A stretch of DNA of 20,711 nucleotides, from positions 1-20,711 of the forward strand of contig JAFTKI010000035.1 in NCBI GenBank assembly GCA_017453335.1, written 5' to 3'. Below the pieces are notes generated by a model. That model saw only the letters and a program-made list of their open reading frames with translations, was not told where the DNA came from and did not search any database. The translations under genes were made by a program, and so were the position numbers. Position 1 is the stretch's first letter; every line of letters begins with the position of its first letter. The stretch is from Clostridia bacterium (GTDB lineage Bacteria; Bacillota_A; Clostridia; Oscillospirales; CAG-272). Positions 1,632 to 16,713 of the stretch are shown here, one piece after another.

Positions 1632-1660
1632 TTTACAATCACGCAAAAACAAGTTATAAT
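1632..1660 (+). promoter_or_regulatory. Promoter of the corrinoid methyltransferase operon
   Basis: TTTACA (1632-1637), a 17-base spacer and a consensus TATAAT (1655-1660). Initiation near 1667 gives a leader of about 67 bases before the AraC start at 1734. It also rules out the TTG at 1665 as the start codon, because that codon would lie at or before the transcription start. Confidence 0.75.
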
Positions 1661-1733: not shown

Positions 1734-3266
1734 ATGATGAATGATACAAGCAAATTGAATATCTATCACGAGATCTTTTCCTGCGAAAAGGTTTACGATG
1801 CCGAAAAAGCATGGACGGAGCTGAAAGCGCACGACGATACCGAGGTCAGTATGGTGATCGGGGGCAACGGCATCCATTTGGTGTTGGACCAGGCCATTCC
1901 GTGCAAGGAGGGAGATATTTTTGTGACACCCTCCAATATTCCGCACCGCTTTTTCTTGGAAAATGACGGAGAGCATCTTACTGTCCGTCAGCTACGATTT
2001 TTTATCGGAGAGGACCATGCTTCCTTCGAAAAGCGTTGTGGATTGTTTCAGGACGGCTCCGTAACCGCGTACGCCATGTTGAATCGTTCCATGACAGAGC
2101 AGATCGGTGCTTTGTACGATGCCATCGAGCAAGAGATAATGGAGCGGAAAAAGCTGTGGCGCGACGCGGTGGGGAGTAATCTCTCATTGCTTTTGATCAA
2201 TGTAGAGCGATATATCGACAGCTCTATTAAAAATCACTCTGCGGTTTCCACGAATGAATGGAACGTGGTGCTGACCGCCATACAGATCATCAAAAACAAT
2301 TGCGCCGATGTGAATTTGACGCAGGGCTCTCTTGCTGAGACGCTGGGCATCAGTAAGGCTCATTTGAGCAGGATCTTCCAAAATCTGACAGGGAAGGGCT
2401 TTGCCGAGTATTTGCGCACCGCCAGGATCGAGTATGCCTGCAAGCTGTTGCGGGAAAGCAAGTTGACGGTCGAGGAGATCGTTGCCGGCTGCGGGTTGCG
2501 AGACGTTCCCTCATTTTATAAAAATTTCCAAGCGTATACGGGGATCACCCCAAGCGAGTACCGACGCGCTATTATACAAGATAACGAAAAAAACAAAAAT
2601 AACAATACAACTTCAAAAGGAGAAAGAATCATGGTGGTTTTGAGCGAAATTTCGGAGAACCTGCAAAAGGGTAAGGCAAAGATCGTAAAGGAGCTGGTTC
2701 AGCAGGCGATTGACGAGGGAGCAAATCCCGAGCAGATCCTGAACGAGGGACTGCTGGATGGCATGAACATCATTGGTGAAAAGTTTAAGAACAACGAGGT
2801 GTACGTGCCCGAGGTTTTGGTAGCGGCACGTGCTATGAACATGGGAACGCAGATCCTGAAGCCCTATCTTGCCGCAAACGGCGTGCAGGCAACGGGTAAG
2901 GTCTGCATCGGTACGGTGCAGGGCGACCTCCACGACATTGGCAAGAATCTTGTCAAGATGATGATGGAGGGCAAGGGACTCGAAGTGGTTGACTTGGGTA
3001 CCGACGTAGCTCCCCAGACCTTTGTGCAGACTGCCATTGAGCAGAACTGCCGGGTTATTTGCTGCTCCGCACTGCTTACTACCACCATGGGTGTGATGGA
3101 GGAGGTCGTGAAAGCCGCAGAGGCTGCCGGAATTCGCGACAAGGTGAAGATCATGGTTGGCGGAGCCCCCGTGAACGAGGACTTCTGTAAGAAGATCGGC
3201 GCGGATTGCTATACCGTAGATGCGGCAAGTGCGGCAGATGCGGCAGTGGCTTTCTGCAAGGCGTAA
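1734..3266 (+). CDS. AraC-family regulator fused in frame to a corrinoid protein
   Basis: One uninterrupted frame of 510 residues. Residues 1-278 are an AraC-type activator: a cupin-like sensor domain (about 5-95, with the TPSNIPHRF element), a helical linker, and a two-helix-turn-helix DNA-binding domain (about 178-278) ending in the family signature GITPSEYRR. Residues 279-299 are a polar linker rich in Asn and Lys. Residues 300-510 are a complete corrinoid-binding protein, described separately. I chose ATG 1734 (or 1737) because TGAGG lies at 1723-1727. AraC genes normally stop soon after the PSEYRR motif; here no stop is present, yet a strong internal ribosome binding site and ATG follow. 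Both a fusion protein and a separately started corrinoid protein are possible. An A7 run at 2587-2593 matters: one extra A would create a TAA within a few codons. Confidence 0.82.
   Translation: MMNDTSKLNIYHEIFSCEKVYDAEKAWTELKAHDDTEVSMVIGGNGIHLVLDQAIPCKEGDIFVTPSNIPHRFFLENDGEHLTVRQLRFFIGEDHASFEKRCGLFQDGSVTAYAMLNRSMTEQIGALYDAIEQEIMERKKLWRDAVGSNLSLLLINVERYIDSSIKNHSAVSTNEWNVVLTAIQIIKNNCADVNLTQGSLAETLGISKAHLSRIFQNLTGKGFAEYLRTARIEYACKLLRESKLTVEEIVAGCGLRDVPSFYKNFQAYTGITPSEYRRAIIQDNEKNKNNNTTSKGERIMVVLSEISENLQKGKAKIVKELVQQAIDEGANPEQILNEGLLDGMNIIGEKFKNNEVYVPEVLVAARAMNMGTQILKPYLAANGVQATGKVCIGTVQGDLHDIGKNLVKMMMEGKGLEVVDLGTDVAPQTFVQTAIEQNCRVICCSALLTTTMGVMEEVVKAAEAAGIRDKVKIMVGGAPVNEDFCKKIGADCYTVDAASAADAAVAFCKA
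2617..2622 (+). promoter_or_regulatory. Internal ribosome binding site before the corrinoid domain
   Basis: AAGGAG stands 8 bases before the in-frame ATG at 2631, inside the frame that encodes the AraC-corrinoid linker. It is as strong as any other binding site in the operon and supports independent translation of the corrinoid protein. Confidence 0.8.
2631..3266 (+). CDS. Corrinoid (B12-binding) methyltransferase protein, MtaC/MtbC type
   Basis: From ATG 2631 this is a 211-residue protein, the usual length of MtaC/MtbC/MttC-type corrinoid carriers. Residues 1-85 form the helical cap domain, with GLLDGMNIIGEKF and a YVPEVL...ARAMNMG stretch. The Rossmann-like B12 domain follows with the base-off signature Asp99-x-His101-x-x-Gly104 (GDLHDIGKNLV), SALLTTTM at about 146-153, and a GGAPV turn near 177. 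His101 should be the lower axial cobalt ligand. The protein would shuttle a methyl group between the UroD-fold enzymes encoded next. Its frame is continuous with the upstream AraC gene, so it may also exist as a fusion. The next gene follows after 31 bases. Confidence 0.93.
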   Translation: MVVLSEISENLQKGKAKIVKELVQQAIDEGANPEQILNEGLLDGMNIIGEKFKNNEVYVPEVLVAARAMNMGTQILKPYLAANGVQATGKVCIGTVQGDLHDIGKNLVKMMMEGKGLEVVDLGTDVAPQTFVQTAIEQNCRVICCSALLTTTMGVMEEVVKAAEAAGIRDKVKIMVGGAPVNEDFCKKIGADCYTVDAASAADAAVAFCKA

Positions 3267-3297: not shown

Positions 3298-4518
3298 GTG
3301 ACAGAGAATGATAAGTTGATAGTGAGAGAGCTTGCCAAGAAATACATGGTGCTTGTTTGCACGGAAAATTATGAAAAGATGGTAAATCGATTTCGCGACA
3401 CCAACGACCTCAAACCGGTGCGTCCTCCTGTGATCCTGGCCGAGATCCCGTGGTACCAGATGAATATGGATAACGAGCTGACCTGCGTATGCGAGGATGC
3501 GCGTGTGCGAGAGGTGGAGCTGTATTTTCGAAAGGCTATTTTCTATATGACGCACTTCAAGGCAGATCATCTTTACGAGCCTTGCTTTGACGTTAAATGC
3601 GTAGTGGAATCCACTGGGATGGGGCTTGCGCCTGTCAGCGCGGACTTGAAGCGGACGGACGCTGCCAACAAGATCGTGTCCCGCGAATTTGTGGATATTC
3701 TGGAGGATGAATCCGCTCTGGAGCAGCTACACGATCCCGTGTTTACGCTTCGTCCCGACAAGGACGCGGAAAACATGGAATTTTACACCGAGCTACTGGG
3801 GGATACGATTCCGATACGGCAGGTGGGCTTTGATCATCTCTACTTCGCCCCCTGGGATACGATTACCCGATTCCGTGGCGTGGAGCCCATCTTGATGGAT
3901 ATGTACGATCGACCGGAGTATCTTCATGAGATCATCAAAAAATTTGTTTCCGCCGCGCATGCGCAGTTGGATTTTGCGGAAAAGAATTTGAACGTGGTCT
4001 CCAGGCACTCTCTCCATTGTACTCCCTCCGTTGTGTCCGGACTGGAAAAGGAAGGACTGAAGGCTACTTGGTGCCGCAGTATGGCACAGACCTTTGGCGT
4101 CATTTCCCCCGCCATGTTTGAGGAGTTTGAGGTGGATTATCTGCTTTCCGTGGCGGAGCGGTTTGCCTACACCTACTACGGCTGCTGTGAGCCTCTGGAC
4201 GATAAGATCGGGGTGCTGAAAAAAATCCCCAATTTGCGCAAGATCGGTTGTTCCCCTTGGGCGAGCGTGGAAAGATGCGCCGAGCAGATCCGTGGCGATT
4301 ATGTGCTTGCGCGCAAGCCCAACCCCGCCCACGTTGCAATCCAAACCGATCCGGACGTGATCCGACGCGAGATCGAGGAAACCGTTCGGGCGTGCATCAA
4401 GTACGGCTGTTCCTATGATTATGTATTGAAGGATATCAGTACGGTATCTCACCGCCCACAAAATCTGATTGTCTGGGCGCAAACGGTCAGCGACGTACTT
4501 GATCAATACTACGGCTAA
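3298..4518 (+). CDS. UroD-superfamily putative corrinoid methyltransferase 1
   Basis: 406 residues from a GTG start, with GGAGG about 10 bases upstream. The fold family is the uroporphyrinogen decarboxylase superfamily, which includes MtaA, MtbA and CmuA; the context next to a corrinoid protein and activator points to methyl transfer, not heme synthesis. The metal-site region is atypical: where MtaA-type enzymes have His-x-Cys-Gly, this protein has Tyr-Gly-Cys296-Cys297-Glu298, with another Cys at 318 (GCSPW). A KPNPAHVA segment follows near 340-347. The protein is longer than the other three family members in the operon. It may act on the methyl donor; the substrate is unknown. Superfamily assignment is firm, the reaction is inference. 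Confidence 0.82.
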   Translation: MTENDKLIVRELAKKYMVLVCTENYEKMVNRFRDTNDLKPVRPPVILAEIPWYQMNMDNELTCVCEDARVREVELYFRKAIFYMTHFKADHLYEPCFDVKCVVESTGMGLAPVSADLKRTDAANKIVSREFVDILEDESALEQLHDPVFTLRPDKDAENMEFYTELLGDTIPIRQVGFDHLYFAPWDTITRFRGVEPILMDMYDRPEYLHEIIKKFVSAAHAQLDFAEKNLNVVSRHSLHCTPSVVSGLEKEGLKATWCRSMAQTFGVISPAMFEEFEVDYLLSVAERFAYTYYGCCEPLDDKIGVLKKIPNLRKIGCSPWASVERCAEQIRGDYVLARKPNPAHVAIQTDPDVIRREIEETVRACIKYGCSYDYVLKDISTVSHRPQNLIVWAQTVSDVLDQYYG

Positions 4519-4543: not shown

Positions 4544-5668
4544 ATGACAACGCGTGAACGTTGTATGAATATCCTGCATTACAGGAATGCGGACCGTATG
4601 CCTGCGATCCATTTTGGATATTGGAAGCAGCTGCTTGACGAATGGGCGGCGCAGGGACATATCACGCAGGAATTGGCTGACACCGCCATTCGTGACGGAT
4701 CGGCGGCGGATCGGGAGCTGGATAAGATCCTTGGTTGGGATTGCGGATGGAACAGCATCATTGATTGTAACAAGCGTTTGAATCCCCGGTTTGAGCAAAA
4801 GGTATTGGAGGTTCTTCCGGACGGTTCTCAGCGCATTGTTACGAAAAATGGCGTTATCGAAAGGATCAAGCCCGGCGTTGTATCCATACCATCCGAGGAT
4901 GATTATCTGTTGAAGGACAGGGAAGCCTTTGAAAAGCTTTTTAAGCCCAAAATGCAGTTTTCTGCCGACCGATTGGATCAAGAGGCTATCATTAAGCGAT
5001 TCAACGAGCTGCACGCTTGCGATATTCCCGTAGGAGTCAACGTGGGAAGCATCATGGGGGAGATTCGCGACATCACCACCGTGATGGGGATGAGTTATCT
5101 GATGTACGACGAGGACGAGGATCTGTTTGCGGATATCGTGGATACCTATGCCGAAATGCAGTATCAATGTGTGGAAGCAATCTTGAATCTGGGATTGCCC
5201 TTTGATTACGCGCATTATTGGGAGGATATCTGTTTTAAAAATGGCCCATTGCTTTCCCCGCAAATATTTGACGAGCTTTGCGCAAAGCATTATAAAAAGC
5301 GCAACGAGCTGTGTCACAAGCATGGAATCGACATTATCTCCCTGGATTGTGACGGCGTGGTGAAAGAGCTGATCCCTACATGGATTGACAATGGCGTAAA
5401 CGTGTTGTTTCCCATCGAGGTTGGTGTTTGGGGTGATCAGTTTGAAGCCGCACGCAAAAAGCACGGTGAGCGGCTTCTTGGTGTGGGCGGCATGGATAAG
5501 ACTGCCTTTCGCAAGGATCGCGCCGCGGTGGACGCGGAGATCGCGCGGATGGAGCGGCTGGCTTCCTTGGGCGGGTTTATTCCTTGCCCTGATCATCGGT
5601 TGATGCCGGGATCAAAATTTGAGCTTGTACAGTATTACGCTGAGAAGATCAAGGAAATTCGTTTTTGA
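4544..5668 (+). CDS. UroD-superfamily putative corrinoid methyltransferase 2
   Basis: 374 residues from ATG 4544, with GAGG about 10 bases upstream and 25 bases after the previous stop. It belongs to the UroD superfamily but shows Asp268-Cys-Asp270-Gly at the place where zinc-type members carry His-x-Cys-Gly, plus a conserved-looking C-terminal CPDHRLMPG (His351) before the last helix. It lacks the N-terminal Arg-rich porphyrinogen-binding signature of HemE as I recall it. Co-transcription with the corrinoid protein suggests transfer of a methyl group from a small O-, N- or S-methyl compound to Co(I). A long antisense open frame covers most of this gene and is treated as a shadow. Confidence 0.82.
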   Translation: MTTRERCMNILHYRNADRMPAIHFGYWKQLLDEWAAQGHITQELADTAIRDGSAADRELDKILGWDCGWNSIIDCNKRLNPRFEQKVLEVLPDGSQRIVTKNGVIERIKPGVVSIPSEDDYLLKDREAFEKLFKPKMQFSADRLDQEAIIKRFNELHACDIPVGVNVGSIMGEIRDITTVMGMSYLMYDEDEDLFADIVDTYAEMQYQCVEAILNLGLPFDYAHYWEDICFKNGPLLSPQIFDELCAKHYKKRNELCHKHGIDIISLDCDGVVKELIPTWIDNGVNVLFPIEVGVWGDQFEAARKKHGERLLGVGGMDKTAFRKDRAAVDAEIARMERLASLGGFIPCPDHRLMPGSKFELVQYYAEKIKEIRF

Positions 5669-5684
5669 CGGAGGAGATCGTTCT

Positions 5685-6653
5685 ATGACCGGAGCGGAGA
5701 GAGTAAAAAATACCATACTGGGGCTTCCCGTGGACCGTCAGCCCATCTACGCGTGGGTCAGATCCAATCTGACCGACGAGATCACGGAGGCCTTCGGATC
5801 AGTGGAAAATTTTGAGGATCGCTACGAGTTTGACGCGGCGCATATCTTCGGAGCACCCAACGTTTTGGACAAGGATGGACTGGAGGCGTTGCGCGGACAG
5901 GTTGACGAGCTGACACCGGATATTCTCCTGGAGCATCTCGACCTTTATGTAGAACCCACGGTAGACAATTGCAAAAAATTGAAGAAGTCGCTGGATTTTT
6001 ATCGTGCCAAGGGGCGCTTCTGCTATATTCAAACCCCCGGATTTTTTGAATATTTCAACGATGTGTTTGGTATACAGAATCAGTTGATGTATCTTTTGCT
6101 TTACAAGGATGAGCTTGCGGAGCTTTATGCAAGACAAGCGGAGTGGATCGTGAAATTCGCAGATATCTGTATCGACTTGGGGGCGGATTGCATCCATATT
6201 TCCGACGACTGGGGATCACAAAAGGACTTGATGTTTGATCCCAAGCTTTGGGAGGAGCTGATCAAGCCCAATTTGAGAAGAGTGATCGACCACGTGCATT
6301 CCAAGGGCGTGTTCGTCAGCCTGCATTCAGACGGTTGTATCGAAAAGGTTGTTCCCGGGCTTGCAGAGATCGGCATTGACATGGTGCACCCCTGGCAAGA
6401 AAGCGCGGGGATGTCTTACGATCTATATCTGGAACGGTATTCCGATCGTTTTGCGATTCTCGGTGGCTTATGCGTACAGACTGCCTTTGGGATCTTGACG
6501 CAGGAGGAGCTTTTGTCCGAGGTGAAGCGTGTATTTGACAAAATGCACGGAAAGCGCTGGATCTGCTGTACCTCGCACTTTGTGCAAAAGCATTGCTCAA
6601 TAGAGGATCTCACGGCGGCATACGATCTGGTATATCAATTAGCGAGAGGATAA
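5685..6653 (+). CDS. UroD-superfamily putative corrinoid methyltransferase 3
   Basis: 322 residues from ATG 5685, which has GGAGGAGA ending 7 bases upstream and lies 16 bases after the previous stop. The frame stays open back to 5619, but that part overlaps the preceding gene and has no binding site. UroD-type barrel features include HISDDWG at about 171-177 and LHSDGCIE at 213-220 (His214, Asp216, Cys218), with a C-terminal Cys/His group at Cys294, Cys295, His298, His303 and Cys304. These residues could form a metal site different from both neighbouring paralogues. Role in the operon is inferred as a donor-specific methyltransferase or a second acceptor enzyme. Confidence 0.82.
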   Translation: MTGAERVKNTILGLPVDRQPIYAWVRSNLTDEITEAFGSVENFEDRYEFDAAHIFGAPNVLDKDGLEALRGQVDELTPDILLEHLDLYVEPTVDNCKKLKKSLDFYRAKGRFCYIQTPGFFEYFNDVFGIQNQLMYLLLYKDELAELYARQAEWIVKFADICIDLGADCIHISDDWGSQKDLMFDPKLWEELIKPNLRRVIDHVHSKGVFVSLHSDGCIEKVVPGLAEIGIDMVHPWQESAGMSYDLYLERYSDRFAILGGLCVQTAFGILTQEELLSEVKRVFDKMHGKRWICCTSHFVQKHCSIEDLTAAYDLVYQLARG

Positions 6654-6661
6654 GATATAAA

Positions 6662-7675
6662 ATGGGAAAATATGATATGAGGCAATGGATTGACAGCTTG
6701 AAGGGAAGCGGCGCGAAAAAGCCACTTCCCATCCTGTCTTTCCCCTGTGTTAGTCTGTTGGGCGTAACCGTTCGCGAATTGATCTCGGACAGCACGCTTC
6801 AAGCTAAGGGAATGAAGTTGGTCGCCGAGCGAACCGACGCGGCGGCAGCGGTCAGCTTTATGGACCTCTCGGTGGAGGCCGATTGCTTTGGTACAACGGC
6901 CTGTGTATCGGATGATGAGGTTCCAACGGTCAAAGGCAGATTGATCAATGATATGGATGAGGCGGAGACGCTTGCCGTTCCGCCCATTGGAAGCGGACGT
7001 ACGCAGATTTACATTGATGCAATCAAAAATGCTGCTGAAATGATCACCGACCGCCCCGTGCTGGCGGGCATGATCGGCCCTTTCTCCCTGGCGGCACGCT
7101 TGCTTGACGTGTCGGAGATCATGATCGATTGCTACGAGGACCCCGATATGGTTCATACGGTGATGGAGAAGGTCACACAATTTTTGATCGAATACGCCAA
7201 GGCTTACAAGGCAGTGGGTGCCAACGGTGTGATGCTGGCAGAACCGGTTTCGGGACTGCTTTCACCTGCCTTGGAGGCGGAATTTTCCGCTCCCTACGTC
7301 AAGCGTATCGTAGACGCGGTGCAAACCGAGGATTTTGTCCTCATCTACCACAACTGCGGAGGAAATACCCCATTGATGGTGGACTCCTTCCTTTCTTTTG
7401 GCGCGGCGGCATACCACTTTGGAAACGCCGTGGATATGAAGGAGATGTTGGAGAAGTTCCCGATAGGTGTCCCTGTTATGGGCAATGTGGATCCCGCGGG
7501 CGTGCTCCGTATGGGAACTCCCGAGGTAGTCAAGCGTACAACGCTTGAAATTATGGAGAAGTGCTGCGAATATCCCAATTTCGTGATCTCTTCGGGGTGT
7601 GATATCCCGCCCATGACTCCTTGGGAAAATATAGGTGCATTTTTTGAAGCGGTAAGGGAATACTATGGAAAATAA
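6662..7675 (+). CDS. MtaA/MtbA-like methylcobamide:thiol methyltransferase
   Basis: 337 residues from ATG 6662; GAGAGG lies about 12 bases upstream and the previous gene ends 8 bases before. This is the member of the four that keeps the zinc signature of MtaA/MtbA: His230-x-Cys232-Gly-Gly and Cys313 (SSGCDIPP). In methanogens these residues hold a zinc that activates the thiol of coenzyme M to accept a methyl group from methyl-Co(III). The N-terminal IGPFSLAARL (138-147) and MGNVDP (273-278) elements also fit the family. In a clostridial host without evidence for coenzyme M, the acceptor is unknown. The next gene starts inside this one (11-base overlap), indicating tight coupling. Confidence 0.87.
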   Translation: MGKYDMRQWIDSLKGSGAKKPLPILSFPCVSLLGVTVRELISDSTLQAKGMKLVAERTDAAAAVSFMDLSVEADCFGTTACVSDDEVPTVKGRLINDMDEAETLAVPPIGSGRTQIYIDAIKNAAEMITDRPVLAGMIGPFSLAARLLDVSEIMIDCYEDPDMVHTVMEKVTQFLIEYAKAYKAVGANGVMLAEPVSGLLSPALEAEFSAPYVKRIVDAVQTEDFVLIYHNCGGNTPLMVDSFLSFGAAAYHFGNAVDMKEMLEKFPIGVPVMGNVDPAGVLRMGTPEVVKRTTLEIMEKCCEYPNFVISSGCDIPPMTPWENIGAFFEAVREYYGK

Positions 7676-8240
7676 GGCGCTTTTTGCAAGGCTTTCCACG
7701 GCGGCATTGGAATTGGGGGCACACAAGGCGGGTGTGATCTCTGCTGACTGGATCGAAACCGACCGATCCTTTCGGGACATGTGCACCGCCAATTCCTGCG
7801 GCGTGTACGGTAAATGCTGGATGTGCCCACCCGACGTAGGGGAGATCGACGCGCTGATGGCGGAGATCAAAGATTATCGTTATGCTTTGGTGTATCAAAC
7901 CGTGTCGGAGTTGGAGGACAGCTTTGATTTTGAGGGTATGGTGGCGGCGAAGAAGCGAACCTATCCCTTGGCGCAAAGTTTGCGGTCCGTGTTTGCGGAG
8001 GAAAAGATCACCCACGTGCTGCATCTTGGCGCGGGAGGCTGCGGTGTCTGCAAGACCTGCGCCAAGCGCACGGGTGAGCCTTGCCGCTTCCCTGAGAAGG
8101 CGATGGCATCCTTGGAGGCGTACGGAATCAACGTTTCACAGCTTGCCAAGGCGGCGGGTATGAAGTACATCAACGGACAAAATACCGTGACGTATTTTGG
8201 AGCGGTGCTGTTTTCGTTTGACGGAGATGATCATGAATAA
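7665..8240 (+). CDS. DUF2284 cysteine-rich, probable metal-binding protein
   Basis: 191 residues; the ATG overlaps the end of the upstream methyltransferase gene by 11 bases, and the last codons overlap the start of the activator gene by 8. Two cysteine groups stand out: Cys40, Cys45-x5-Cys51-x2-Cys54 (CGVYGKCWMCPP) and Cys126-x2-Cys129-x2-Cys132-x7-Cys140 (CGVCKTCAKRTGEPC). I recognise the DUF2284 family, described as predicted metal-binding. The patterns resemble iron-sulfur ligands. Being sandwiched between a methyltransferase and a reductive activator suggests that it supplies low-potential electrons to the activator, but this is inference. No signal peptide or membrane segment. Confidence 0.85.
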   Translation: MENKALFARLSTAALELGAHKAGVISADWIETDRSFRDMCTANSCGVYGKCWMCPPDVGEIDALMAEIKDYRYALVYQTVSELEDSFDFEGMVAAKKRTYPLAQSLRSVFAEEKITHVLHLGAGGCGVCKTCAKRTGEPCRFPEKAMASLEAYGINVSQLAKAAGMKYINGQNTVTYFGAVLFSFDGDDHE

Positions 8241-9738
8241 AAAGATTTTTGTAACCGTCAACGGCAAGCGTGAGGCTTCCGTGGCGGGGCTTACCCTTTC
8301 CGAGATCCTTCGTGGCGAAAAGCCGTGCGGCGGTCACGGCAGATGCGGAAAATGTAAGGTCAAGGCAAGGGGAGCGCTCTCTCCCTTTACCGACGCGGAG
8401 AAGACATTGCTTTCCGCTGAGGAATTGGCAAGGGGCGTTCGTCTGTCTTGTCTGACACGAGCTCTTGGAGATTGTGAGATCGAGACGGCGGACAGCGCAA
8501 AGGGAGAACGGATCGTCACCGACGGCGTGTTGCCGGCATTTGCGATCCGACCTGCCTTTGCGGGGTACGGCGTGGCGATAGACGTGGGGACCACCACCTT
8601 GGCGGCAAGATTGTACGACACGGCAGGAAATTTGCTGGCGGAGGCATCACGCCTCAACCCTCAGCAGGTGTGGGGAGCGGATGTGATCTCGCGCATCGAG
8701 GCAGCCTTATCAGGCAAGGCGCGGGAGTTATCCAAGGCGATCAGATCCGCCTTGAACGGTATCATCACAGAATTGACCGATATTGCCAATATTCCGACCA
8801 ATACCGTTGATGGCGTTGTGATCACGGGAAACACCGTCATGCTGTCCTTGCTAACAGGAGAGAACGTGGAGCCCTTTTCCCATGCTCCCTTTGGTGCCAA
8901 ACGGCTGTTTGGCGAATTTGTTTCGGCGGCATCGTTGGAGCTGTCCAATTTACAAGCCGACACGCAAGTGTATTTTCCGCCTTGTATCTCGGCATTTGTT
9001 GGGGCGGATGCCATCTGCGCGATCCTCGCCACCCGACTTTGCGATGGAGATACCGCCATGCTGGCGGATATCGGCACCAACGGCGAGATCGCCATGTGGC
9101 ATAATGGCAAGCTTTTCGTTTGCGCTACCGCCGCAGGTCCTGCATTTGAGGGCGTCGGTATTTCCATGGGTATGCGAGGTGCCGAAGGGGCGATTGACAA
9201 GGTCACCGTCGAAAACGACGTTTTAAAAGCCCACGTAATAGGGGGGAGCGTCCCCGTCGGTATTTGCGGTAGCGGACTTGTGGACGCGGTTGCGTGTATG
9301 CTCGATTTGGAGCTCCTTGACGAAAGCGGATATCTGGAGGAGGATAAATTTCTCATCCAAGCTTCCGTTTATCTGACACCCAAGGATATCCGCATGCTTC
9401 AGCTTGCCAAAAGTGCCATCTGCGCAGGGGTGGTGACTCTGATCAAGCGGATGGGGGCGGATGCTTCGGACGTTGCAACCCTTTTTATTGCCGGCGGTTT
9501 TGGTAATTACCTTGATCGGGAAAGCGCCGCAAGGATCGGCTTGATCCCGCGTGCCTTGACGGAAAAAACGCAGGCGGTAGGCAACGCTGCTCTTGGCGGT
9601 GCGGTCATGCTGTTGCTCAACCAAGAGGCGTGTGAGAAAGCCGAAGCGTTGGCGAGGAGCGCTGTCGTAGTGGATCTGTCGACGGATCCCGTGTTCTCCG
9701 AGCAGTATATGTCGGGCATGATGCTGGACGAGGTTTAA
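8233..9738 (+). CDS. Reductive activator of corrinoid proteins (RACo/RamA-like, DUF4445 ASKHA)
   Basis: 501 residues from ATG 8233; GGAG at 8223-8226 fits this start better than the ATG at 8227. An N-terminal ferredoxin-like domain carries Cys32-x5-Cys38-x2-Cys41 and Cys73, a [2Fe-2S] pattern. The rest is the ASKHA ATPase domain: phosphate-1 loop AIDVGTTT (115-122), ITGNTVM (197-203), DIGTNGE (279-285), AGPAFEG (301-307) and a late AGGFGNYLD. By family knowledge such proteins use ATP to reduce oxidised Co(II) corrinoid protein back to Co(I). It is shorter than the roughly 630 residues of Carboxydothermus RACo, apparently in the region between the iron-sulfur and ATPase domains. Last gene of the operon; a terminator follows 7 bases after the stop. 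Confidence 0.92.
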   Translation: MNKKIFVTVNGKREASVAGLTLSEILRGEKPCGGHGRCGKCKVKARGALSPFTDAEKTLLSAEELARGVRLSCLTRALGDCEIETADSAKGERIVTDGVLPAFAIRPAFAGYGVAIDVGTTTLAARLYDTAGNLLAEASRLNPQQVWGADVISRIEAALSGKARELSKAIRSALNGIITELTDIANIPTNTVDGVVITGNTVMLSLLTGENVEPFSHAPFGAKRLFGEFVSAASLELSNLQADTQVYFPPCISAFVGADAICAILATRLCDGDTAMLADIGTNGEIAMWHNGKLFVCATAAGPAFEGVGISMGMRGAEGAIDKVTVENDVLKAHVIGGSVPVGICGSGLVDAVACMLDLELLDESGYLEEDKFLIQASVYLTPKDIRMLQLAKSAICAGVVTLIKRMGADASDVATLFIAGGFGNYLDRESAARIGLIPRALTEKTQAVGNAALGGAVMLLLNQEACEKAEALARSAVVVDLSTDPVFSEQYMSGMMLDEV

Positions 9739-15723: not shown

Positions 15724-16713
15724 ATGACCAACCAAGAAATTTTGAAAATCGCAATGGCGCAATCTGCCGTTGACCTTTGCGCCGAGCCTTCTGATTTTGA
15801 GAAAAGCAAGAACGTGGTCGTCACGTCGCGTGAGAATAATGGCGCGAGGCGGTACTTGAAGCTGCCGTTTTCCTGTCAGCTCGTGTCCTACGGAAACAAC
15901 GTGGTGGCATCGGTGTCGCCCGAATTCCGCGAGATCGCGGAGAATTACATCAACAAATATCCCGTGGAGCATCTGTTTGAAACACCGCATTTGCATGTGC
16001 TCAACGATGCGTTGATGGAAAAAGGGCAGAAGATCTGCTTTATGGCGGAGTATTTTTTGCCGGATATGAATGCTTTGAACCAACGGGCAGTCACGCCCTT
16101 GTTAAAAGTTTGCAACCTCGACTTCTCGCGAGATCCGACCGCCAAAGGCGGCCGCCCTTCGGGTTTCGACTGCGTCCGCCCGTGTCATCCTGAACGGAGC
16201 GTAGCGGAGTCGAACTGCAAAGCAGCGCAGAGCGTAGTGAATGCGGGATCTCGGGCGGACTTCGCTCAAGATGACACGCGAGGGCGGATATGTCGAGATT
16301 TGGATGAAGCAAAGTGCTACGAAATGCGGCTTTTGACGCAGCCCGACTTTGCCGACCTATACCTGCCCGAATGGTCGAACGCTCTTTGCAAGGACAGAAA
16401 GCACCTTGACGTGCTCGGCGTAGGCGCATACGACGGTGACAAGCTCGTCGGACTTGCGGGATGCTCTGCCGATTGCGATACCATGTGGCAGATCGGCATT
16501 GACGTGCTTCCCGCATATCGCAGGCAGGGAATTGCCTCAGCGCTCACCAGCCGTCGTGCCATCGAGATTTTGAACCGCGGAAAAGTGCCGTTTTACTGCG
16601 CCGCCTGGTGTAATATCAGATCTGTCCGCAATGCCATCAAAAGCGGCTTCCGTCCCGCATGGGTGGAAATGACGGCAAAGCCCTGCGAGATGGTGGACGG
16701 GATGAATCAATAA
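15724..16713 (+). CDS. GNAT acetyltransferase interrupted in frame by a repeat
   Basis: 329 residues with a good AAAGGAG site. The N-terminal part (1-118) and the C-terminal part (199-329) look like one continuous GNAT-type protein of about 250 residues, with the acetyl-CoA motif VLPAYRRQGIASAL at 261-274 and a GF turn at 308-309. Between them, residues about 119-198 are translated from repeat DNA: a CHPERSVAES...DFAQDDT stretch that I recognise as the typical translation of a dispersed palindromic repeat. The insert keeps the frame. Whether the protein still folds is unknown; the insert falls at the junction between the N-terminal region and the acetyltransferase domain, where a loop could be tolerated. 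Confidence 0.8.
   Translation: MTNQEILKIAMAQSAVDLCAEPSDFEKSKNVVVTSRENNGARRYLKLPFSCQLVSYGNNVVASVSPEFREIAENYINKYPVEHLFETPHLHVLNDALMEKGQKICFMAEYFLPDMNALNQRAVTPLLKVCNLDFSRDPTAKGGRPSGFDCVRPCHPERSVAESNCKAAQSVVNAGSRADFAQDDTRGRICRDLDEAKCYEMRLLTQPDFADLYLPEWSNALCKDRKHLDVLGVGAYDGDKLVGLAGCSADCDTMWQIGIDVLPAYRRQGIASALTSRRAIEILNRGKVPFYCAAWCNIRSVRNAIKSGFRPAWVEMTAKPCEMVDGMNQ
16081..16317. repeat. Palindromic dispersed-type repeat inserted in a GNAT gene
   Basis: About 237 bases of hairpin-rich, GC-rich DNA; the exact ends cannot be fixed from one copy. The core is an inverted repeat: TCCGCCC plus GTGTCATC (16175-16189) faces GATGACAC (16270-16277) and GGGCGGA (16282-16288). An outer pair CTCGAC (16117-16122) faces GTCGAG (16292-16297). 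Smaller palindromes sit inside the left half (TCTCGCGAGA; CCGCC/GGCGG). The core resembles the TGTCATCCTGA...TCAAGATGACA elements common in many uncultured bacterial genomes. No transposase is encoded, so it would be non-autonomous. No second copy was seen in this window. Confidence 0.78.

Follow-up and report, generated by a model that had tools for sequence, protein, structure and literature searches.

Within the 20,711 nucleotides analysed here (the window, from a Clostridia bacterium), a single stop-free frame of 510 codons plus stop (1734..3266, plus strand) joins an AraC-type regulator to a corrinoid carrier and holds a ribosome-binding site at the border between the two. The questions raised by this locus are whether the two parts are truly one gene, whether that gene gives a second, shorter protein from the inner site, and what a regulator would do with a methyl-carrier domain. 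To our knowledge, little is known of how bacterial corrinoid methyltransferase operons are regulated. The features of the frame, with the evidence for each in brackets, are the following.

1734..3266, plus strand: long product of 510 aa, an AraC-type regulator joined to a corrinoid carrier (translation, Pfam, homologues).
1812..2015, plus strand: cupin-like or AraC ligand-binding domain, residues about 27-94 (weak Pfam matches, strands in the model).
2331..2567, plus strand: AraC helix-turn-helix (HTH) domain, residues 200-278 (HTH_18, 78.4 bits).
2568..2630, plus strand: linker of 21 residues (279-299) that bears the inner ribosome-binding site (sequence, alignment, model).
2615..2622, plus strand: inner Shine-Dalgarno sequence AAAAGGAG, 8 bases ahead of an ATG (sequence, comparison of fusions).
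2631..3266, plus strand: predicted short product, a free corrinoid carrier of 211 aa from the inner ATG (comparison, motifs).

The HTH_18 match exceeds its Pfam gathering score of 33.6, which places the regulator part with the AraC/XylS proteins; HTH_AraC matches as well, and this part closes with PSEYRR, its last residue being 278. In the carrier part, both B12 domains, B12-binding_2 at residues 304-376 (72 bits, gathering score 23) and B12-binding at residues 389-504 (89.5 bits, gathering score 32.1), score above the Pfam gathering values, as expected of a corrinoid methyl carrier, and the motifs GDLHDIGKN, SALLTTT and GGAP are all present. GDLHDIGKN contains the DxHxxG sequence of corrinoid methyl-carrier proteins, which we take to be their cobalt-ligand motif. 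Translation and Pfam thus confirmed what a preliminary description of this DNA had stated, namely an AraC domain running to PSEYRR, a 21-residue linker and a full corrinoid protein. Of its term 'MtaC-type', the assignment to the corrinoid carriers stands but the label is loose, as the best NCBIfam models were MtgC (205.4 against a cut-off of 370) and pyl_corrinoid (189.4 against 215.3), both below their cut-offs. No MerR-type HTH, the mark of the CarH/LitR regulators, was found among the 9 Pfam families listed, the HTH being that of AraC. At the N-terminal side, the matches to cupin-type families were weak (ARD at residues 27-94, AraC_binding at 31-89 and Cupin_2 at 29-79), and residues G44, G46, P56, C57 and D61 of this domain are invariant in 38 aligned fusions. 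The cysteine C57 (window positions 1902-1904), present in 38/38 of these sequences, is a possible ligand or metal site of the cupin-like domain.

An AlphaFold2 model of the fusion, obtained with an alignment of 38 rows (mean pLDDT 83.8, pTM 0.50), was confident over most of the regulator and carrier parts, and its sole inner stretch with pLDDT below 50 comprised residues 289-293, in the linker. Fold matches of the model included the corrinoid proteins 7xcn, 4jgi and 1y80, the AraC-type chains ToxT and Rns, and the B12 parts of the MerR-type regulators 5c8f and 8jbs. By sequence, the closest solved proteins were 1y80_A (E 6.7e-54), 7xcn_M (1.8e-42), 4jgi_A (2.4e-35) and 2i2x_B (1.3e-23).

The linker contains a run of seven A (2587-2593), and the preliminary description had offered the alternative that a sequencing or assembly slip in this run joins two normal genes; homopolymers are prone to sequencing error, and one extra A would, according to that description, create a stop. 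A search of 5.8 billion proteins, proposed there as a check for the combination of AraC and B12-binding domains, gave 3237 matches, the best 120 of which, the window's own among them, were examined. In this set, 117 of the 119 other homologues were at least 450 aa long, and homologues as little as 57% identical, among the matches listed, continue through linkers that differ in length and sequence, most of these linkers ending in KGE.IM, KEE.IM or similar in the alignment of the best 120. The DNA of 43 fusions was also compared, consisting of the window and 42 further loci, 36 of them reached by protein or HMM search and 6 found among 80 listed contig loci with a peptide pattern; all 43 are open through the linker, despite linkers of other sequence and length. 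The base error is thus rejected as extremely improbable.

Genome samples, each of which includes its centre genome, picked for its fusion, showed how the fusion is distributed. It was found in 9/394 genomes of an order sample, in 31/295 genomes of a family sample (32 fusions), in 5/20 genomes of a second family sample and in 1/250 genomes of a third, namely its centre G003, and samples around G002 and G005, which overlap with the 295-genome family sample, held no fusion beyond the centres and those already known. Judged by these comparisons of sequences, the fusion is real and widespread; the true N-terminal (upper) starts of its members are uncertain. One of the 43 fusions, L192, which is devoid of the inner Met, stands outside the 42-fusion tables, the tree of start changes and the tests, and its genome, G625, was counted once, under its other fusion.

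Some candidates were set aside in the course of these comparisons. For plasmid spread of the fusion there was a single match, 77% identical over 20% of the query. Locus L068, at first a candidate fusion, was dropped once it proved to encode a URO-D methyltransferase fused with a corrinoid domain; it constitutes another type of carrier-domain fusion in one open frame (L068:6951-8708). Unfused AraC regulators were seen to adjoin a same-strand corrinoid carrier gene in L193:2116-4125, L196:7017-9044, L194 and L195, and the AraC tree excluded these regulators through its score filter, while four other AraC rows lay beyond long branches.

The ATG at 2631 is in frame with the long product, 8 bases past AAAAGGAG. 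A simple pattern detected, in 115 of the best 120 of 3237 proteins, a Met where the corrinoid part starts and, close to it, residues able to encode a Shine-Dalgarno sequence; four were without that pattern, P0012 (Arg), P0044, P0073 (Val) and P0079 (Val), and P0084 was missed by it, its Met being visible by eye. At the DNA level, an inner start was scored as retained when an ATG or GTG had a Shine-Dalgarno match of at least 4 bases, a criterion fixed after the sequences had been seen. By this criterion, an in-frame start with its Shine-Dalgarno sequence is conserved at the domain border, as in a nested gene, in 31/42 fusions (the window and 41 others), with 30 ATG and one GTG (L184). Matches of at least 4 bases preceded 30/30 ATGs at the corrinoid start compared to 19/606 other in-frame ATGs, and matches of at least 5 bases preceded 27/30 compared to 7/606 in the same genes. 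A match of at least 5 bases precedes 28/31 retained starts. When the residues were fixed and the codons recoded synonymously according to the codon usage of each gene, 500 trials gave on average 8.0 such matches and never more than 14, so that the strong inner ribosome-binding site claimed for 2615-2622 and ATG 2631 proved to be beyond chance. The GAG core lies 8-9 bases ahead of the start in 28/31 retained fusions and occurs in one codon register in 22 fusions and in another in 9; therefore, the nucleotides are kept where the residues differ.

The RNA around retained starts was less folded than about 98% of same-gene windows (median rank 0.02), whereas lost sites had a median rank of 0.34 (retained vs. 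lost, p 9e-6), a result to which the A-rich flexible linker, possibly favoured for its flexibility too, could contribute; in the window alone, a longer stretch and its shuffled versions showed no such difference, the native sequence not being the more weakly folded. Two other origins for these observations were considered. The inner Shine-Dalgarno sequence and ATG could be unused relics left when a stop codon was lost and two genes became fused, an event easily imagined from the unfused araC genes beside a carrier gene in L193-L196, but the regulators of L193, L194 and L196 are distant (31-32% identity) and two of the three have a PocR sensory domain in Pfam. Moreover, the signal is kept where the AraC part is only 30% identical to that of the window (L189, L190), it occurs in two codon registers and with one GTG replacement, and its absence accompanies a second carrier gene, as described below, all of which makes a relic very improbable. 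A free carrier could also arise from an internal promoter, which consensus scans can miss, or by proteolysis of the linker, which is weakly predicted in the model. This is improbable as well, though less so than a relic, since what is conserved is a Shine-Dalgarno sequence with a start codon, and since just one promoter-like match, a weak one (2091-2120, 9 of 12), was found in the plus-strand interval from 1734 to 2631.

The inner start is missing from 11/42 fusions (L001, L004, L006, L162, L164, L172, L173, L175, L187, L188 and L191). Its loss corresponds to six changes on the protein tree, and supported branches make five of these unavoidable. Borderline cases are L172, with a Shine-Dalgarno match before TTG, and L173, with a 4-base match before TTG, and Shine-Dalgarno-like bases persist with no start codon in L162 and L188. 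In 5/11 of these loci (L162, L164, L172, L175 and L187), the fusion has a free carrier gene as its immediate downstream neighbour, the one after L162 being broken in frame in the assembly. No retained fusion has such a gene directly downstream, the sequence available behind L002 and L183 being shorter than 300 bases. The start was lacking in 5/5 fusions with an adjoining carrier gene compared to 6/37 without one (Fisher 0.0005).

The same relation was examined in 41 genomes, some of them maybe incomplete and with that of the window left out. A second carrier gene was detected at E 1e-65 or better in 10/11 lost-start genomes compared to 2/30 retained ones (Fisher 6e-7). In the eleventh, G632, the carrier gene is found at a looser threshold in two pieces at contig ends (L232, L233), and with it the counts become 11/11 vs. 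2/30 (Fisher 2.5e-8), which amounts to a natural experiment. When TTG was taken as a start, a separate carrier was present in 9/9 vs. 4/32 genomes (Fisher 2e-6); when a match of at least 5 bases was required, in 11/14 vs. 2/27 (Fisher 7e-6); and when the broken and two-piece genes were left out, in 9/11 vs. 2/30 (Fisher 8e-6). With kinship allowed for, about 4.9 of 5 independent pairs on supported branches ran as predicted and 0 in the opposite direction (sign test p 0.0625).

The exceptions, with a retained start plus a free carrier gene, are G518 and G625, and the latter also has a second fusion, L192, devoid of the inner Met. Aside from those just named in G625 (the second fusion and a free gene) and in G518 (a free gene), the matches in retained genomes at 1e-25 were open frames of 780-884 codons with 31-39% identity, whose size suggests methionine synthase. 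In G628, no methyltransferase homologue adjoins the lost-start fusion L188, and another contig (L231) carries an operon that includes a carrier gene preceded by a Shine-Dalgarno sequence of its own. At L165 (G518), where the inner start is retained, the free carrier gene lies upstream on the same strand and is 87% identical to that of the window.

As the inner start is conserved and a separate carrier exists in all 11 genomes examined in which it is lacking, two products are the most likely outcome, and both the long regulator and the free carrier are very probably made. The idea of two products had already been put forward for the window, and comparison supports it well, through the conserved start, its two registers and the other carrier of the lost-start genomes.

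The surroundings of the fusion are as follows; MtA to MtD are labels given here to genes of the operon.

1632..1660, plus strand: promoter-like TTTACA-17-TATAAT (11 of 12), upstream of the fusion (consensus match only).
3298..4518, plus strand: MtA, 406 aa (unmatched in sequence comparisons with Pfam, NCBIfam and PDB).
4544..5668, plus strand: MtB, URO-D-like methyltransferase (Pfam match just below the cut-off).
5679..6653, plus strand: MtC, URO-D/MtaA-like methyltransferase (Pfam, NCBIfam).
6659..7675, plus strand: MtD, MtaA/MtbA-like methyltransferase (Pfam, NCBIfam).
7665..8240, plus strand: DUF2284 metal-binding protein (Pfam).
8197..9738, plus strand: RACo/AcsV-like corrinoid reactivation protein (Pfam, NCBIfam).

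The consensus promoter scan gave 5 matches in the region compared to a mean of 2.3 in shuffles. MtA, possibly a divergent methyltransferase, has a homologue of at least 50% identity in 13/42 other fusion loci. Of these 42 loci, 40 have one or more homologues of the methyltransferases in the window's operon, 35 have a homologue of MtD, 26 of DUF2284 and 25 of RACo. These homologues make autoregulation of such an operon likely, and the long form probably regulates its own operon in the window. Past the methyltransferase operon, the frame at 9867-11045 matches a Diels-Alderase N-terminal domain (29.6 bits, cut-off 27), and an inverted repeat with 27-nt arms, 78% complementary, lies inside an acetyltransferase frame (16173-16286), where it may be a small repeat element translated in frame. 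The window contained no Rfam match at the gathering score and no tRNA.

With respect to the corrinoid domain of the long form, the motifs GD(L/M)HDIGKN, S(A/S)LL(T/S)TT and GG are present in 43/43 fusions, and DxHxxG is intact in 43/43, including those whose genome has another carrier gene; because 6 fusions came from peptide patterns that contain the motif, the unselected test comprises 36. Identity of the corrinoid part to that of the window had a median of 70% in lost-start fusions compared to 81% in retained ones (p 1.4e-5), whereas the AraC part showed no drop (38% vs. 39%). The reference of 38 other proteins, from which L189 and L190 were left out, has 93 corrinoid columns with a constancy of 95% or more, and 71 of these are preserved in 10 or more of the 11 lost-start fusions. 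By its sequence, the fused domain of the lost-start proteins, which on this view has ceased to provide free carrier, still looks able to bind corrinoid. As the motif is intact even beside another carrier gene, the data suggest that the long form uses B12 itself, and the simplest reading appears to be that the regulator uses its corrinoid domain.

What the domain would be used for is less certain. Since the two forms share their codons in retained fusions, the need for the short form as a carrier is enough to explain the conservation, so that the long form could carry its corrinoid domain as a passive tail or a tethered carrier with no role in sensing. This seems rather unlikely, given that the lost-start fusions, with a separate carrier in the genome, keep the domain and the B12 motif while other positions differ. 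Slightly less unlikely is that the cupin domain senses a small substrate and the corrinoid domain modulates the response by docking a substrate-loaded methyltransferase, not through the state of its cobalt. The weak cupin and AraC_binding matches and the invariance of G44, G46, P56, C57 and D61 in 38 aligned fusions favour this view, but sensing by the cupin domain alone does not account for the intact B12 motifs. That B12 or its methylation state is the signal of the long form, much as the preliminary description had proposed for the cobalt or methylation state of the corrinoid, is, in our estimate, a more plausible reading than these two, although evenly poised in itself.

The comparison of sequences documents the fusion, the conserved inner start, the loss of this start together with the presence of a second carrier, and the preserved B12 motif; we infer that both products are made, which promoter the long form binds and that the B12 state controls its binding to DNA. 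As an explanation of the whole locus, a nested two-product gene, encoding a regulator-carrier that reads the corrinoid plus a free carrier, is a likely one. Translation from 1734 would yield an AraC-type DNA-binding regulator ending in a complete corrinoid (B12) methyl carrier, and translation from the ATG at 2631, with its own ribosome-binding site, would yield the free 211-aa carrier, which would serve the operon's methyltransferases and the RACo-type reactivator. The long form would regulate this operon, its carrier domain reading the corrinoid pool as loaded, reduced or methylated, because the methyltransferases of the free carrier could dock on the long form too. As a tentative proposal, held with less confidence than the foregoing, the operon's methyltransferases might methylate or demethylate the cobalt of this one-component regulator and so switch its DNA binding, while the nested start supplies the free carrier. 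If this were true, transcription would read methyl-group flux directly, through the regulator's working copy of the pathway's carrier subunit.

The operon resembles the Type 1 mlp clusters, which are corrinoid methyltransferase gene clusters of the UroD superfamily in bacteria and archaea (Kountz and Balskus, PMC10418091). In the available parts of that article there is no occurrence of AraC, and the passages with 'regulator' and 'fused' concern other matters; the accessible text of other papers matching the terms had AraC under nitrogen fixation only, or ARACHNE as a false match. The preliminary description knew of no AraC-corrinoid fusion, and no description of one was found in the open-access literature either, a scope that leaves most subscription journals outside. 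AraC regulators, corrinoid carriers and nested genes are each known, and we could not find their combination described in that literature. The sequences themselves are already in public records, since the sources give names to some homologues, among those listed 'cobalamin-dependent protein', 'helix-turn-helix domain-containing protein' and 'corrinoid protein of di/trimethylamine methyltransferase'. Such names describe one protein per locus and illustrate that a product can escape gene callers.

The corrinoid carriers MttC (7xcn) and MtaC (2i2x) and those of Moorella (1y80) and Desulfitobacterium (4jgi) are free proteins; the fusion shares with them both B12 domains and the DxHxxG motif, but here the domain doubles as the C-terminus of an AraC regulator. 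AraC regulators, in turn, usually end at the HTH. As in the AraC/XylS proteins, a cupin-like N-terminal domain and an AraC HTH are present, with ToxT and Rns as fold matches, but behind the HTH comes a further domain of about 210 residues, that of an enzyme subunit. Among trigger enzymes and nested in-frame genes, PutA and the short form of CheA offer parallels for a pathway protein that also regulates and for a short product from an inner start, although no example with a regulator and a methyl carrier in one gene was found in the open-access literature searched. Finally, the B12 photoreceptor regulators CarH/LitR, represented by the fold matches 5c8f and 8jbs, also combine a B12-binding domain with an HTH, but their HTH is of the MerR type, whereas that of the fusion is of the AraC type and its B12 part is a methyl carrier that has an inner start to itself. 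The family offers a regulator whose presumed signal-reading domain would also belong to the enzyme system.
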